DNA of 5,819 bases, taken from positions 1 through 5,819 of the forward strand of contig CANPYU010000079.1 of the NCBI GenBank assembly GCA_947588665.1. The letters run 5' to 3'. Both the position numbers and the translations under genes were made by a program. Origin of the DNA: an uncultured Bacilli bacterium. GTDB taxonomy: Bacteria; Bacillota_I; Bacilli_A; RF39; UBA660. The notes beneath the pieces were generated by a model. It did no database searches, had not been told where the DNA came from, and saw only the letters and a list, made by a program, of their open reading frames with translations. Shown one piece after another: positions 3-5,819 of this stretch (position 1 is its first letter; each line of letters begins with the position of its first letter).

Positions 3-1592
3 GCTTATATAATTTCATCACCTGCTCAATATATTATTGGGGCCCAAAGAACTTACATGACAGATCCAACTAATAAAGAAGAATTAGAAGCTTTCAAATT
101 AAAGTTAGATTCTTATACAACGAGAATGCAATCATATTATGAAACTTTTTATTCTATATTAGAAGATAAAGACTTATTTAATAATTTACATTTATATCAA
201 GTAGATAAAAGATATACTAAGAATTCTGCTGGAGTATCAGTCTTTAATAATGTTTATACTACTGAAGAGTTATTCCATAAGAATTTTAATGAAGTAACAG
301 GTGTTTGGGCGGCAAGTGCAGGAGTTAATGCAGGAGCAAATGGTTCTATGATTCAGTGGCAAGTCGCGGGAGTTTTAGATAGTGATTTAGCAACTGATGG
401 CACTTTAGATAATGGACACGTTACTTATAAGACATTTACTCACGAGTCTGCTCATAATCTTGATGGTCGTCTATTCTTAATGAATAATGAGAGAAGATAT
501 GATGCTGGAGGAGAAGACTATGCTGATGCCTTCTTCATGCAGGCTTTTGAAAAATTTGGTATTGTTATGAATATGTCAATTAACTTTAAAGAAAATTTAC
601 CAATTGGTTCTAATTTAACTCCTGCCCGTATTAGTTCTGATGAAGATATTCACGATTTTTATAATAAGGCTTTCCAAACAATATATGTGCTTGATTATTT
701 AGAAGCTAAAGCCTTTTTAGCCCTAGATAAAGATAGTCAAAAAGAACTTGGAGTACAAGTGTCATACCCAAATGAAAATAAACAATTTGAAACAACGGAT
801 GGTAAATCTCATGATTATGATACTGAACGCGAAATGTTTACCGGAAAAACTTATCTTGAAGATAAATATGCCAGATATAAAGCTCGACTAGTTGCAAGAT
901 ATACTCAGTTAAATCAAATTGCGGATTTTGATAATATGGAATTAAATTCAATTGATGATTTAATTGATAATAAAATAATGCTTTATCCTGGTATTAATAA
1001 AGTAGGATCTAGAGGAGATAACTCCTATGGCGGAGAAGGGTACAATGTTGTTCATTGGTATCAAGTAAATAATCCTGATGGAAGGCCTGAATCATATGCT
1101 TTAAAATGGTTTAGTTATGAAATGCTCGGGTATGCTGGTTATAAAAAAGGATTAGTAGAATATGCAAGTAATATTCATTATGAGCCAAGACAAACTTATA
1201 AAAGTTTAGTTGCTCCATATAATGCTGATGGAACCCCTAATTTAGGCACAGTTAATTATAAATCAGATTCTATGGCTCTTAAAACTATCACGGGTAAATA
1301 TGATGATTTTGATGAATATAAAAAAGCTCGTTTTAAAGAAGTCGAAAAAAACTTAGATCACTTAAATAAAATAATTGATGTTAAAGATTATGTTCAAAAA
1401 TTCTATGATGCTTTATTAAAAGACAGTAATATTAGAAAAACAACTAATGATAGAAGTTATCCAAATAGTAGTGAGATTCGTCATGAAATATATAATAAAC
1501 TTAAAAATTATACCAATGATTTTAGAGATAATATTTATATGGATGATTGGCAACAAGATACATCTAATATTGAAATAGTTAAAAATAAATAA
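3..1592 (+). CDS. M26-family (ZmpA/B/C-like) zinc metallopeptidase, C-terminal part, 5'-truncated by the window edge
   Basis: This is probably a secreted or surface zinc endopeptidase; characterised M26 members cleave host proteins such as IgA1. The frame is open from base 3. The first ATG (57) has no ribosome binding site, and the frame upstream of it encodes plausible protein, so that ATG is internal. Numbering from it, HESAH (residues 129-133) is the HExxH zinc/catalytic motif. It is followed by NLDG, an arginine pair (146-147) and E153. E153 lies 20 residues after the second histidine, the spacing I recall for the third zinc ligand in M26 proteases. The layout H-E-x-x-H-N-x-D-G also resembles streptococcal ZmpB. 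About 355 residues follow, with no transmembrane segment and no LPXTG sorting signal before the TAA stop, so any anchor must lie in the missing N-terminal part. The substrate is unknown. A bidirectional terminator follows directly. The family call is fairly secure; the IgA specificity is not supported. Confidence 0.82.
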   Translation, partial: AYIISSPAQYIIGAQRTYMTDPTNKEELEAFKLKLDSYTTRMQSYYETFYSILEDKDLFNNLHLYQVDKRYTKNSAGVSVFNNVYTTEELFHKNFNEVTGVWAASAGVNAGANGSMIQWQVAGVLDSDLATDGTLDNGHVTYKTFTHESAHNLDGRLFLMNNERRYDAGGEDYADAFFMQAFEKFGIVMNMSINFKENLPIGSNLTPARISSDEDIHDFYNKAFQTIYVLDYLEAKAFLALDKDSQKELGVQVSYPNENKQFETTDGKSHDYDTEREMFTGKTYLEDKYARYKARLVARYTQLNQIADFDNMELNSIDDLIDNKIMLYPGINKVGSRGDNSYGGEGYNVVHWYQVNNPDGRPESYALKWFSYEMLGYAGYKKGLVEYASNIHYEPRQTYKSLVAPYNADGTPNLGTVNYKSDSMALKTITGKYDDFDEYKKARFKEVEKNLDHLNKIIDVKDYVQKFYDALLKDSNIRKTTNDRSYPNSSEIRHEIYNKLKNYTNDFRDNIYMDDWQQDTSNIEIVKNK

Positions 1593-1637: not shown

Positions 1638-2090
1638 TTAATTTTCTAAAAAGTTTTTATTAGTGCGACCTAAAAGGTAGTCAGCAGAGATATGATATTT
1701 ACTACATATCGTATATAAATAATTAGTAGATAATAAATTAACACCACGCTCATATGAGGAAATAGTCGAAAAAGTAGTATTTAAAAATTCCGATAATTTA
1801 GTTTGAGTTAACTTATTTTGTTTTCTAAATTCTTTTAATCTTTTACCGGCTAATTTTTTATCTATTACTTTATTTATATTATTATATTGTCTAGCATCAG
1901 TAAATTCAAAAATATAATCTAATGAGACATCATAATAATTACATAGTGTGATTAAATGTTTAATTGGAATTGTAACATAATTATTTTCATAATGACCATA
2001 TTGACTACGATCTATACCTAAAATTTCGGCAACTTTAGTTATAGTTAAACCAATTCTTTCTCTTAACTCTTTTAATCTTTCAGGAAACAT
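1638..2090 (-). CDS. Tandem XRE/Cro-type helix-turn-helix transcriptional regulator
   Basis: A 150-residue cytoplasmic DNA-binding protein made almost entirely of two HTH domains of the lambda Cro/CI (XRE) type. Domain 1 spans about residues 5-61, starting RLKELRERIGLT and ending VSLDYIF. Domain 2 spans about 84-141, starting RLKEFRKQNKLT, with the classic ISSYERG recognition-helix end and SADYLLG at its close. The two copies are offset by 79 residues and joined by a short polar linker. There is no ligand-binding, protease-sensing or dimerisation domain, so one chain may bind like a pseudo-dimer. The ATG is well placed because the first domain begins at residue 5; the Shine-Dalgarno match is weak (GAAG). 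The gene is divergent from the surface-protein gene and convergent with the metallopeptidase. Inferred role: repressor of itself and/or the divergent gene. No target is demonstrated by the sequence. Confidence 0.88.
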   Translation of the reverse strand: MFPERLKELRERIGLTITKVAEILGIDRSQYGHYENNYVTIPIKHLITLCNYYDVSLDYIFEFTDARQYNNINKVIDKKLAGKRLKEFRKQNKLTQTKLSEFLNTTFSTISSYERGVNLLSTNYLYTICSKYHISADYLLGRTNKNFLEN

Positions 2091-2247: not shown

Positions 2248-3684
2248 ATGGAGTTTAAGAAGTTAGAGCAGAATAAAAAAAGTAAGGTAATTATATGCTT
2301 TATATTTATAGTATTGCTATTAATAACAATTTTATTAACGGTAAGTAAAGCAAAATATCAAGTAACTAAAAATGTGCAGATAGTTAATGGAAAAGTAAAT
2401 TATATGCCATATGATTTTAAGATAGTAGAGATTTATAAAGAAAAAGATCAAGGTGGGTATGATGAAGTAGATGAAATACCTACAGGGGATTATGTAATAG
2501 ATGAAAAAGAAAGTAAATGTATGATTAATGATACAGAAAAAGATGATGGAGCAATACTAAAAACAGTAAATGGCAATCATACATTTGGTAATTTAAAGAG
2601 AATGGATAAATGTACTTTGTATTTTAGAAAGATAACAACAAAAAAAGTGCAAACATCATTAGGAGAATTAGATGTACAATTAGCAGTTCCTGATTTTTCA
2701 AAAACTAGTTGTTTAAGTGGATGTGAAGAATCTACAAATGGTTTATATGAAGTTCAAGATGGAGAAAATAAATCATATTATTTTAGAGGAACAGTAGATA
2801 ATAACTGGGTATCATTTGCAGAATATTATTGGCGTATCATCCGAATAAATGGGGATGGCTCTATTAGATTAATCTACAATGGTACAACAACTAATCAAAA
2901 AGATTCAAGTACAAATGCTGTAGCAAGCCAAGTTTTTTCAGTAGACTATTATAGATTATCTAATGATGCAAAGTATGTAGGCTTCATGTATGGGCCAAAA
3001 AATAATTCTGCGGGTTCTACATTAGCATCAGAAAATTATAGTGAGGCTACAAATAATAGTGTTTCAAGTAATGCTAAAAATCAATTAGATAGTTGGTATA
3101 CTACTAATTTAATGAATAAACAAGTAGGAGAAAAAACTGCAAAAGATTATATAGACACAGAAGCAGGGTTCTGTGGGGATAGAACACCTCATACAGGAGA
3201 ATCTGCAAGTACAAGGGATGAAACGTTATCAGGATATGGAAAAAAAAAGACATATTATGGTGCTTACATAAGATTAAGAAGACGAGCAGCACCGACATTT
3301 GATTGTGAAAAAGAAAATGATTTATATACAGTAAGTAGCGCTAAAAAAGGAAACAAAGCATTAACCAATCCAATAGGCTTAATCACGGCCGATGAAGTAG
3401 TATTTGCAGGAGGACAGTTTAATACTAAGAACAATGACTACTGGTTGACGACAAACAGCTATTGGACCATGTCTCCGTCTAACTTTAGCGTTAACAGTGG
3501 TATTAGCAGTGATGGTGATGCTTTTATGTTCGAAGTGGACTCGAATGGCAAGCTCTACAGCACTTCCGTGGCCAGCATACCTGGTATTCGTCCTGTCATA
3601 AATTTAAAGGCTGATACGGTATTCAAAACATTAGAAAATGGAAAAGATCCAGGTACTGTAGATAATCCATACGTAGTTCAATAA
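2248..3684 (+). CDS. Membrane-anchored surface protein with C-terminal hypervariable domain (probable DGR target)
   Basis: Likely a cell-surface binding protein. Residues 1-13 are basic, 14-32 form one hydrophobic signal-anchor, and the rest is predicted outside. I see a first extracellular module (about 37-127, with cysteines 91 and 122), then a region from 134 opening with a CxxxC pair (155, 159) and containing YYWRIIRINGDGSIRLIYNG (193-212). A C-terminal domain (about 335-478) carries PIGLITADEV, YWTMSPSNF and GIRPVINLK. From memory this architecture recurs in gut Firmicutes, often as multicopy families with a C-type-lectin-like end diversified by DGRs. I cannot give a Pfam name with certainty. 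Residues 399-450 show the DGR-like variable block. There is no LPXTG and no GFxxxE pilin signal, so it is not a typical pilin. Start: AGGAAGG ten bases upstream. Its codon use differs from that of the pilus gene. The ligand is unknown. Confidence 0.78.
   Translation: MEFKKLEQNKKSKVIICFIFIVLLLITILLTVSKAKYQVTKNVQIVNGKVNYMPYDFKIVEIYKEKDQGGYDEVDEIPTGDYVIDEKESKCMINDTEKDDGAILKTVNGNHTFGNLKRMDKCTLYFRKITTKKVQTSLGELDVQLAVPDFSKTSCLSGCEESTNGLYEVQDGENKSYYFRGTVDNNWVSFAEYYWRIIRINGDGSIRLIYNGTTTNQKDSSTNAVASQVFSVDYYRLSNDAKYVGFMYGPKNNSAGSTLASENYSEATNNSVSSNAKNQLDSWYTTNLMNKQVGEKTAKDYIDTEAGFCGDRTPHTGESASTRDETLSGYGKKKTYYGAYIRLRRRAAPTFDCEKENDLYTVSSAKKGNKALTNPIGLITADEVVFAGGQFNTKNNDYWLTTNSYWTMSPSNFSVNSGISSDGDAFMFEVDSNGKLYSTSVASIPGIRPVINLKADTVFKTLENGKDPGTVDNPYVVQ
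3240..3248 (+). repeat. A9 homopolymer inside the surface-protein gene
   Basis: Nine adenines span codons 331-334 (GGA AAA AAA AAG). Loss of one A would give a stop at 3269-3271. Gain of one A, or a -1 ribosomal slip at the in-frame A_AAA_AAG heptamer, would give a stop at 3300-3302. Both truncate the protein before its variable region. A run of this length is not exceptional in such AT-rich DNA. Confidence 0.55.
3442..3597 (+). other. Probable DGR variable region (VR) within the surface-protein gene
   Basis: Bases 3441-3600 are about 47% G+C by hand count, against about 36% in the preceding 160 bases and about 30% near the start of the gene. Adenine falls to 22-25% in 3481-3600. Of the 52 codons for residues 399-450, 38 end in C or T, including 16 in a row (residues 411-426, bases 3478-3525). 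DGRs copy a template with mutation at adenines, turning AAY codons into NNY codons, and this is the expected footprint. The conserved GGTATTCGTCCTGTC at 3583-3597 would be the fixed 3' end (the IMH-like position). No template repeat or reverse transcriptase is in the window. Recombination between paralogues is the main alternative explanation. Confidence 0.68.
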
Positions 3685-3983: not shown

Positions 3984-5519
3984 ATGAATAATAAGAAGAT
4001 TAGATTTCCTTTTAATATTATATTAGCACCATTAATATTTGTTATAAGCTTTATTAAACACTTTTTTTTAGGTGTTAAGTTTGTTTTTTTTGATAGTTGG
4101 TATAATAGAATTGATTATAAAATTAAAGAAAAAAAATTTAAAAATAGAGATTTGAAAGGTAGTTCTATTATTAAGACTACTAAAAAAGAAGAAGAACCGA
4201 CAGAAGTATTAACTGTAGTTGAAAGACAAAAAATTGCTTATGAAAAAAAACAATTAATCGAAGAAATGCAAAAAGAAATAAATATTCGTAAAGTAAATAA
4301 AGAATATTATGAATATTATGGCACTGATAAGGGAGGCAGAAAAGTTAAAGGAGTTATGAGTGCTACTAATAAAATAACTCTGCATAATTTTTTAGCTAAT
4401 GAAGGAATAGATGTATATTCTATTAAAAAAGCTTCTAAAGAGAATTTTCTTAAAAAAATTGGATTAGATAGTGAAAAAGAATTAAGTATCAAAAATCTAA
4501 TTTTTTGGCTAACTCAGGTATCTACTTATTTAAAGGCGGGTATTACTTTAAATGATACTATTAAATTAATGACTAAGCAAGCAATTAAAGATCCTAAAAA
4601 ATGTAAGTTATACCGTGCTATATCTTATGAACTTACATTAGGTGAAAGTTTCAGTACCGCTTTAGAAAATCAAGGAAAAGTATTTCCCCCTCTATTAATT
4701 AATATGATTAGATCGGCTGAAGCAACTGGGGAATTAATTAAAACTCTAGATGATATGGCAAATTATTATACTGAAATAGATAAAACTCGAAAAGAAATGA
4801 TTAGTGCTATTATTTATCCTACTATTTTATTAGTATTTGCTATTGCTGTTTTAACATTTATTATGGTTTATGTTATTCCTGAATTTATTAAAGTTTATGA
4901 TCAAGCTGGTATAAAAGTAAGTGGTTTTACTCTTAGTATTATTAATTTAAGTAATTATATAACTAGTCATTTAAGTATGATTACCATAATATTATTAATA
5001 ATTATTGTGTTATTATTAATTTTATATAAGAATAGTAGGGTATTTCGCAAAACTATTCAAAGCATAGGTATGCATATTCCTTTCTTTGGAAAAATTATTA
5101 TTTATCATGAATTAACTTTATTTACTAAAACTTTTGCAAGTTTACTTAAAAACAGTGTTTATATTACTAATAGTATGGAAATATTAACCAATATAACTAG
5201 TAATGAGGTATATAAAGATATTATGCTTGAAACTATAGGTAATATTGCCAGTGGTGAAAAAATTTCTGCCTCTTTTTATAATAAATGGTGCATTCCCGAT
5301 GTTGCATATTATATGATAGTAACAGGGGAGTCCACTGGTGAATTATCACTGATGATGGATAAAGTAGCCTCTTATTATAGTGATTTACATAAAAGCAAAG
5401 TAACTAATTTAAAAGCTTTTTTAGAGCCTATTATGATTGTTATTTTAGCTATTATTGTCGGAGTTATTATTTTAGCAGTTGTTATTCCAATGTTTAGTTT
5501 ATATGGACAGATTAAATAA
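3984..5519 (+). CDS. pilC: Type IV pilus/type II secretion inner-membrane platform protein (PilC/GspF/ComGB family)
   Basis: Integral membrane platform protein that connects the assembly ATPase to pilin polymerisation. It has the family's two repeated T2SF domains. The first spans about 169-301, with the helix bundle starting WLTQVSTYLKAGITL, the SAEATGEL motif at 244-251 and a membrane segment at about 274-298. The second spans about 374-503, with the matching FTKTFASLLKNSVYI, TGESTGEL at 447-454 and a terminal membrane segment at 483-505. A further membrane segment lies at about 331-348. Residues 118-150 match the short N-terminal region seen before the first T2SF domain. The protein has 511 residues where the family is usually near 400. 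The excess is an N-terminal extension with a hydrophobic stretch (8-36) and a charged, probably coiled linker (43-110). The next gene follows after 12 bases. No PilB ATPase gene precedes it in the window. Confidence 0.92.
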   Translation: MNNKKIRFPFNIILAPLIFVISFIKHFFLGVKFVFFDSWYNRIDYKIKEKKFKNRDLKGSSIIKTTKKEEEPTEVLTVVERQKIAYEKKQLIEEMQKEINIRKVNKEYYEYYGTDKGGRKVKGVMSATNKITLHNFLANEGIDVYSIKKASKENFLKKIGLDSEKELSIKNLIFWLTQVSTYLKAGITLNDTIKLMTKQAIKDPKKCKLYRAISYELTLGESFSTALENQGKVFPPLLINMIRSAEATGELIKTLDDMANYYTEIDKTRKEMISAIIYPTILLVFAIAVLTFIMVYVIPEFIKVYDQAGIKVSGFTLSIINLSNYITSHLSMITIILLIIIVLLLILYKNSRVFRKTIQSIGMHIPFFGKIIIYHELTLFTKTFASLLKNSVYITNSMEILTNITSNEVYKDIMLETIGNIASGEKISASFYNKWCIPDVAYYMIVTGESTGELSLMMDKVASYYSDLHKSKVTNLKAFLEPIMIVILAIIVGVIILAVVIPMFSLYGQIK

Positions 5520-5525
5520 GGAGGG
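5518..5525 (+). promoter_or_regulatory. Near-perfect ribosome binding site overlapping the pilC stop
   Basis: AAGGAGGG begins inside the TAA stop of pilC (5517-5519) and ends six bases before the ATG at 5532. It fixes the start of the next gene and implies tight, possibly coupled translation in one operon. Confidence 0.88.
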
Positions 5526-5531
5526 ATTAAA

Positions 5532-5819
5532 ATGATTTTTATATTATTTATAGTCGGCTTTAGTTTAGGAATTGCTTATTCAATTATAGGAGAAAATCTA
5601 CCACTTTTAATTCCCGAAGTTAAAATGGTTGAAGCTAATTCCTGGATTTTAAATTTATTTATTGGGTGTATAAATGCTGTTGTACTATTAGTAAGTTTTT
5701 ATCTATATGGCTTAAGTTACGAATTTTTTTCAAGTATTATTGTCTCCGCCCTAGTTATTATTATTTTTATTACTGATTTAAAATATATGATAATTCTTGA
5801 TAGTCCTTTACTTATTGGG
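5532..5819 (+). CDS. pilD: Prepilin peptidase (A24 family, PilD/ComC-like), 3'-truncated by the window edge
   Basis: Membrane aspartic peptidase that would remove the leader from type IV prepilins. The frame is open for 96 codons to the window end. Hydrophobic segments lie at about 1-19, 38-59 and 65-80. The key match is ITDLKYMIILD (80-90): D82 occupies the position of the first catalytic aspartate, in the family pattern DxxxxxIPD (here DLKYMIILD, with leucine for proline). The second catalytic motif (GxGD) lies beyond the window. The N-terminal part is very short: residues 1-35 resemble the GxxxG...LP end of a usual A24 N-terminal domain, but the cysteine-rich zinc/methyltransferase loop is missing, with only one cysteine (46) in the visible part. 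This suggests a peptidase-only form. Its tight linkage to pilC supports the call. Confidence 0.8.
   Translation, partial: MIFILFIVGFSLGIAYSIIGENLPLLIPEVKMVEANSWILNLFIGCINAVVLLVSFYLYGLSYEFFSSIIVSALVIIIFITDLKYMIILDSPLLIG

Follow-up and report, generated by a model that had tools for sequence, protein, structure and literature searches.

A predicted DGR variable region in a lectin-fold gene of an uncultured Bacilli bacterium, and candidate template RNA genes dispersed in the genomes of its relatives

Results and Discussion

A composition island lies at the 3' end of a predicted lectin-fold gene

The window, by which we mean the whole 5,819-nt stretch of DNA analysed here, carries the gene under study between a divergently oriented XRE-family regulator and a PilC-like gene (Table 1). 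At 3442-3597 this gene contains an island with a G+C content of 47.4% and an adenine content of 22.4%, versus 27.5% G+C for the window as a whole, and this is the G+C-richest 156-nt stretch of the window, in a tie with the one starting at 3438. Over codons 399-447, GC3 is 0.55 versus 0.20 gene-wide, and codons 411-426 (TCT to TTT) form an unbroken row of 16 codons ending in C or T (NNY); a run of at least 16 such codons was reached in 0.065% of 20,000 codon shuffles (p = 0.00065). A preliminary description made from the sequence alone had drawn attention to an island of about 47% G+C and 22-25% adenine in an AT-rich gene, to 16 successive C/T-ending codons and to an ending in GIRPVINLK, and had attributed them to adenine-directed DGR mutagenesis; all three features are confirmed, the last in the translation of the reading frame. 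The same description assigned the diversified surface to residues of about 399-447. A variable region (VR) is indeed present, while its core, as delimited by DNA common to relatives, is narrower than that description had it (Table 1). Within the 3' constant block the window reads CCTGT where many relatives' VRs read CCAGT and the templates described below read CCAATATCC, and this block may mark the position of an IMH-like initiation site.

Table 1. Coordinates of genes and sequence features in the window
Feature	Position	Strand	Basis or remarks
M26 (IgA1-type) metallo-endopeptidase C-terminal domain	57-1592		E 5e-16
Regulator of the XRE family, divergently oriented, with two HTH domains; found repeatedly beside VR genes	1638-2090	-	HTH_3, E 5e-27, two stretches
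Putative diversified target gene, 478 aa	2248-3684	+	Open reading frame; N-terminal membrane helix, beta-rich ectodomain, predicted C-terminal C-type-lectin (DUF6273-like) fold
5' constant block, encodes YWTMSPS	about 3459-3490	+	Repeated short DNA matches to VRs of other genomes, near query positions 60-91
Predicted VR core, TCTCC to CGTCC	3472-3593 (codons about 409-448)	+	Alignment with relatives' VRs and templates; 16 NNY codons
3' constant block, encodes GIRPVINLKA	about 3582-3617	+	Repeated DNA matches to relatives, near query positions 183-218
PilC-like type II/IV secretion gene and start of a further ORF	3984-5819		T2SSF, E 5e-49

The protein has 6,119 relatives at E ≤ 0.001, and the C-terminal domain of its structure model (pLDDT 73.7) matches lectin folds. 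These matches lend support to the earlier proposal of a C-terminal lectin-like fold in a surface protein, and the product is best described as a membrane-anchored protein with a predicted C-type-lectin (DUF6273-like) fold. The VR thus occupies the 3' end of a gene for a predicted C-type-lectin fold, as in DGR targets. The best structural match of the protein is a bacterial IgA peptidase, and a gene with an M26 domain also lies in the window, separated from the VR gene by one gene. A search of viral contigs with six exact peptide patterns found no relative of the window protein.

A divergent homologue of the window's XRE regulator lies upstream of 35 of 60 VR genes versus 11 of 746 other genes (p = 2e-35; counted in loci L001-L080, L133-L150, L181-L200, L305 and L306, taking VR genes for which 900 nt upstream were available and other genes longer than 200 aa), and the window has the same divergent pair. 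This pairing suggests that the receptors may be regulated individually.

The locus is shared with a sister genome

The window's PilC shares 87% identity with its G001 counterpart, 77% with that of G005 and at most 52% with those of other genomes among the matches listed (117 family genomes searched, 102 with a match), so the window comes from an organism closely related to G001 and probably of the same genus. G001 is the 1.3-Mb MAG of an uncultured Bacilli bacterium, taken from an assembly called Lapin-022, a name that suggests rabbit gut. Both have the XRE regulator, the VR gene, PilC and the gene after it in the same order, the G001 orthologue of the ORF after PilC being 218 aa long. PilC adjoins the VR gene in the window, G001 and G005, and this pilus-type neighbour may be a coincidence. 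Comparison of the orthologous VR proteins gave 62% identity for residues 1-130, 36-44% for 131-345, 51% for 346-398 and 63% for the tail, versus 31% over 32 aligned residues of the VR, which is 21 nt longer in the window. The whole ectodomain therefore diverges between the two orthologues, and the VR diverges most. In the loci examined, G001 holds 32 distinct VRs, and it also has 11 template signatures, 13 template matches by the RNA model and a DGR operon (MutS_I-like, Avd-like, RT) with an unbroken RT frame.

Template units occur in most related genomes

Dozens of paralogues of the VR gene are present per genome. A first collection comprised 89 VR sequences, and in many of these common DNA blocks flank NNY codons; some members, L016, L027 and L047 among them, are without the constant blocks and NNY pattern. 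A consensus of adenine-rich codons matched 19 of 24 related draft genomes at E ≤ 1e-20, with best matches per genome 83-97% identical, and many of the matches end at query base 105, where VRs continue and CCAGTAATAAAT changes to CCAATATCC. The signature TKYGYCCAATAYCC was found 115 times in 18 of the 24 genomes, versus once for the reversed control. An RNA model added units in G017 and G019, which are among the six signature-negative genomes, so that signature-negative does not mean template-negative; no units were found by the model in G011, G021, G023 or G024. The template repeat and DGR-type RT anticipated by the preliminary description were thus recovered in related draft genomes, 20 of the 24 having template units and 12 a full close RT, and templates nearly identical to VRs were found among these relatives. 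The model detected no template in the window itself.

With 150 candidates scored per genome, the model found up to 25 units (G265), followed by 19 in G008, 15 in G014 and 13 each in G001 and G006. Templates are single or arranged in tandem arrays with a spacing of about 250-370 nt; in G265, 12 units form one array spaced by 254-366 nt. Several successive units in G014 and G015 (L188, L186, L175, L271 and L272) lie about 1,320-1,350 nt apart, which leaves room for an intervening gene. The units are non-coding: none of 97 lies in a sense start-to-stop ORF of at least 100 aa (the longest is 77 aa), and 3 of 97 lie in one on the antisense strand.

Across the order, the signature pattern matched 37 of 385 genomes, a number that includes chance matches since the reversed control matched 9 genomes, and the RNA model, applied to only 7 candidates per genome, identified 22 of 385 genomes, 19 strongly and 3 weakly. 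Carriage of the templates on phages or plasmids was considered and rejected: there was no phage match, two 44-nt matches were found in Priestia plasmids, and a single exact pattern match in IMG/VR scored 11 bits with the RNA model and is thus attributable to chance.

Template units have the features of small RNA genes

Upstream of the template, GGTTAATCT can pair with AGATTAATC downstream, with full 9-base pairing, wobble included, in 84 of 95 units (98 units were collected, and three without both motifs were left out). In this closing helix 830 of 855 positions are paired versus 814 ± 2 over 5,000 re-pairings, none of which was as high. The 3' domain begins within the template end (ATATCC with GGATAC) and finishes in an imperfect hairpin, after which many units carry a run of T; among 50 sequences, 22 of its 29 predicted pairs show compensatory changes. 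The single-sequence fold of one unit was not clearly more stable than shuffles (z = -1.2); the RNA structure rests on covariation. In 40 of 96 units a TATAAT-like box (up to one mismatch) begins 12-16 nt upstream of the leader, versus 9.6% of random places. Each template unit is thus a candidate small RNA gene, probably transcribed from its own promoter. A known RNA family was ruled out at Rfam gathering scores, at which four template loci and the window gave no match.

VRs differ from their best templates mainly at adenines

Each VR was compared with every template core from its own genome using a base-blind alignment score, and the best alignment was kept, giving 121 pairs. Among the best 10 of these pairs 134 of 153 mismatches (88%) are at a template adenine, and among the best 20 the count is 278 of 341 (82%), with adenine making up 31% of columns (p = 4e-84). 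The share is 74% in the best 30 pairs, in which 413 mismatches have A in the template versus 53 with A in the VR. The share usual for DGRs is at least 75%, according to the accessible text of PMC8144416. Relatives' best pairs therefore have the adenine bias of a DGR, and through them the adenine-directed mutagenesis proposed at the outset is supported. Over all 121 pairs, 1,700 of 3,531 mismatches (48%) are at template A, with A in 29% of columns; many VRs may have no cognate among the templates compared or may have drifted, two effects that are not separable here. All six VR/template mismatches in the compact cassette L318 (G168) are at A.

For the window VR, the comparison was made with L007, a template picked for its species, the sister species: 14 of 30 adenines differ versus 15 of 69 other bases (one-sided Fisher p = 0.013). 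The six best foreign templates gave 12-15 of 28-30 mismatches at A, and there are many non-A sites at which the window VR departs from the best foreign templates. Local pairing of template with target was rejected: in genomes with at least three templates, 3 of 14 VRs had their best match in a template lying within 2.5 kb, versus 2.4 expected.

The reverse transcriptase operon lies away from the templates

RTs of some kind were present in all of the first ten genomes searched. One type, of about 370 aa, is encoded in an operon with a MutS_I-like protein of 135-140 aa and a bAvd-like protein of 117-119 aa. Pfam recognises these components in all four clade operons scanned (L133, L134, L138 and L140), and other operons are similar by eye. 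Including L318, MutS_I scores 26.6-31.9 bits (cut-off 20.6) and is above the cut-off in all five loci, and the bAvd-like protein scores 38.1-55.3 bits (cut-off 40), with E of 2e-9 or better in all five and a score above the cut-off in three. The L134 operon is neighboured by MYG1-family and DUF378 genes. In a tree for which the program warns of long branches, the RT clusters with four DGR RTs from phages (support 98/98) and is separated from group II and other RTs, which places relatives' enzymes in the DGR clade. It carries the motif IGNMTSQ, which we take to be of DGR type, and its best PDB match is 8ub7, presumably the Bordetella phage DGR enzyme, at 98 bits versus 56 for the next. Relatives' operons therefore encode an accessory protein of the set seen with DGRs (Avd, HRDC or MSL), of which Avd and MSL are established partners in the accessible text of PMC10053308. 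A further RT of the same family, more distantly related, is present in G006 and G009. In G002 and G003 (L097 and L101), a second RT type with the motif IGNYTSQ is likewise placed by the tree on the DGR side.

An RT match above 680 bits was found in 15 of 26 template-positive versus none of 30 template-negative genomes (p = 5e-7, for genomes that are related and not independent, and with 26 of the 30 negatives, G025-G050, resting on the stricter 7-candidate scan and including G043, which has one signature match); with G062, G168 and G331 counted as positive, p is 2e-6. Eleven template-bearing genomes (G003, G010, G012, G014, G015, G016, G017, G019, G236, G256 and G286) are without a full close RT; draft assembly, divergence, breakage and loss are the candidate causes. 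Close homologues of the RT interrupted by stops or broken frames were seen in G019, G015 and G286 (L213, L214 and L311), where template units persist; these breaks reflect assembly error or decay.

The preliminary description expected the template beside the RT, and in this clade that expectation is contradicted. None of 14 RT-bearing loci of the clade gave a template match with the RNA model, and a scan beside RTs with VR queries yielded VRs plus a single VR-like stretch close to the end of a contig. Among the 12 genomes with a full close RT, the RT contig is without a template unit in 11, and in G008 it holds a partial unit about 41 kb off, at the contig start; in G265 likewise, the units listed are all on contigs other than that of the RT. 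As contigs are short, we use 'away from the RT' for distances that in most cases are several kb or more. The classic compact cassette, in which the template adjoins the RT, was not found in these loci and genomes of the clade and is present in the distant relatives G168 and G331.

A DGR acting in trans is the favoured explanation

Taken together, these analyses make it very probable that the island is the VR of a DGR, situated at the C-type-lectin-fold tip of a surface protein and rewritten in trans by an RT using scattered template RNAs. A chromosomal DGR RT, with Avd-like and MutS_I-like partners, would copy small, structured template RNAs from genes at other chromosomal sites, misincorporating opposite template adenines, and the cDNA would then replace the matching 3' part of one among many target genes. 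In this way many templates and many targets would depend on one RT operon, or on two in some genomes. Relatives' sequences show the VRs, the templates, mismatches directed at adenines, the RT operon, its separation from the templates and the covarying RNA structure, and the lectin fold is predicted; the window's own genome probably has an RT and templates, and homing would act in trans. The window protein would bind variable ligands; a lectin anchored in the membrane and diversified by a DGR should have changing binding partners, for example glycans, host matrix, phage or neighbours. The system has the DGR features tested in relatives and lacks the template beside the RT that belongs to the classic cassette. 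What appears to be new is a DGR whose templates have been released as a dispersed set of RNA genes.

The best-surviving alternative, which we consider unlikely, is that an ancestral DGR wrote the VR, that the cognate template has since gone and that the region now changes by ordinary mutation and shuffling among paralogues. The window codons ATG, GAA and ATA, which break the NNY scheme, would fit such a relic, as would the frequent non-A mismatches to known templates (all from foreign species) and the broken, divergent or missing RTs of some related genomes. However, the constant DNA blocks are kept, the run of 16 NNY codons persists unbroken, and the sister genome retains an intact RT frame in its operon together with many templates. 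Gene conversion involving paralogues or silent cassettes, as a route to antigenic variation that needs no reverse transcription, would draw on the abundance of paralogues and agree with the ectodomain divergence between orthologues; it is rendered very improbable by templates that are non-coding, structured and different at their 3' end, by mismatches directed away from A and by the presence of an RT/Avd operon. Lectin loops generally diverge fast, but a fast-evolving loop with odd codon use, for example after horizontal transfer, is scarcely credible given that many of the 89 VRs have the DNA blocks and NNY codons in common and that templates match VRs.

Relation to known systems

The DGR of Bordetella phage BPP-1 has a lectin-fold target and adenine-directed changes. 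In its genome (NC_005357.1), RT, Avd, template and VR are annotated together, and the system described here shares these components; unlike the phage system, with one template inside its cassette, it is chromosomal, with many templates away from the RT and many targets. A DUF6273 C-type-lectin-fold target is shared with Phage nd12 (tentaclins, PMC10743442) and Faecalibacterium prophages (PMC11792537), whose DGRs, in the accessible text, are by contrast phage cassettes. The nd12 RT is the top phage match to the clade RT, at 34% identity, and the template RNA model had no match in the nd12, FP_Brigit, BPP-1 and BalMu-1 regions. Targets far from the RT are likewise described for Treponema denticola and cyanobacterial DGRs (PMC4891356 and PMC7517822, accessible text), where the template stays in the core locus, whereas here the templates are remote too. 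Some loci of Thiohalocapsa PB-PSB1 likewise have neither RT nor template, and for some of these machinery acting in trans is the best explanation, but the accessible portion of PMC10907252 presents several complete and decayed DGRs and no separate set of template RNA genes. The MetaCSST survey (PMC6642488, accessible text) lists six templates in Pseudomonas costantinii, and two templates with six VRs in Stenotrophomonas; its six-template case is atypical, with few A-to-N changes, in contrast to the up to 25 adenine-directed units away from the RT found here. In the accessible DGR literature examined, the template belongs to the RT locus, decayed loci excepted, and no dispersed template RNA genes were found.

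A template that is a separate RNA gene can be duplicated, arrayed and dispersed, and such genes suggest that template RNA may be supplied in trans by design, with one enzyme managing a receptor family. Dispersal could also explain DGR RTs from gut metagenomes that apparently have no template, and the covarying RNA domain would offer a natural small template scaffold for tests of priming and RT recognition.

Compact cassettes suggest how templates dispersed

In G168 the VR gene is followed by four templates at intervals of 166-169 nt, a single 3' RNA domain and genes for a MutS_I-like protein, a bAvd-like protein (55 bits), a 219-aa protein and the RT, in that order. G331 is arranged alike, with two templates and an RT cut by the contig end. 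In G062 one model match lies just upstream of the RT operon (53 bits), with seven weak matches (54-69 bits) on other contigs. The simplest series would be a compact cassette whose templates multiplied and then left the RT, and the steps from G168 and G331, through one adjacent and seven remote matches in G062, to full dispersal would make the evolution of the system traceable.

A more far-reaching reading, which we put forward as tentative, is that of a receptor library in which the chromosomal RT operon would draw on tens of inherited template RNA genes with transcription of their own to rewrite tens of lectin receptors, each under a divergent XRE repressor of its own; the templates would themselves be rewritten at adenines by that machinery, their arrays evolving as a memory. 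Self-rewriting is favoured by the outermost and innermost of the four tandem L318 templates, which differ at 25 positions, 19 of them A, and by 77 template cores, in which A sites vary at 0.27 versus 0.14 for other sites, an excess absent from the 3' flank (0.16 versus 0.16). It is disfavoured by the two middle L318 templates, with 2 of 10 and 3 of 8 differences at A, and selection acting through the target proteins could mimic the pattern.

Between Avd and RT, where no such protein was seen in the dispersed-template operons, the compact cassettes encode a protein of 217-219 aa (L318, 4750-5409; L317, 847-1500). The L318 copy has no Pfam match, and the protein has an N-terminal hydrophobic stretch.
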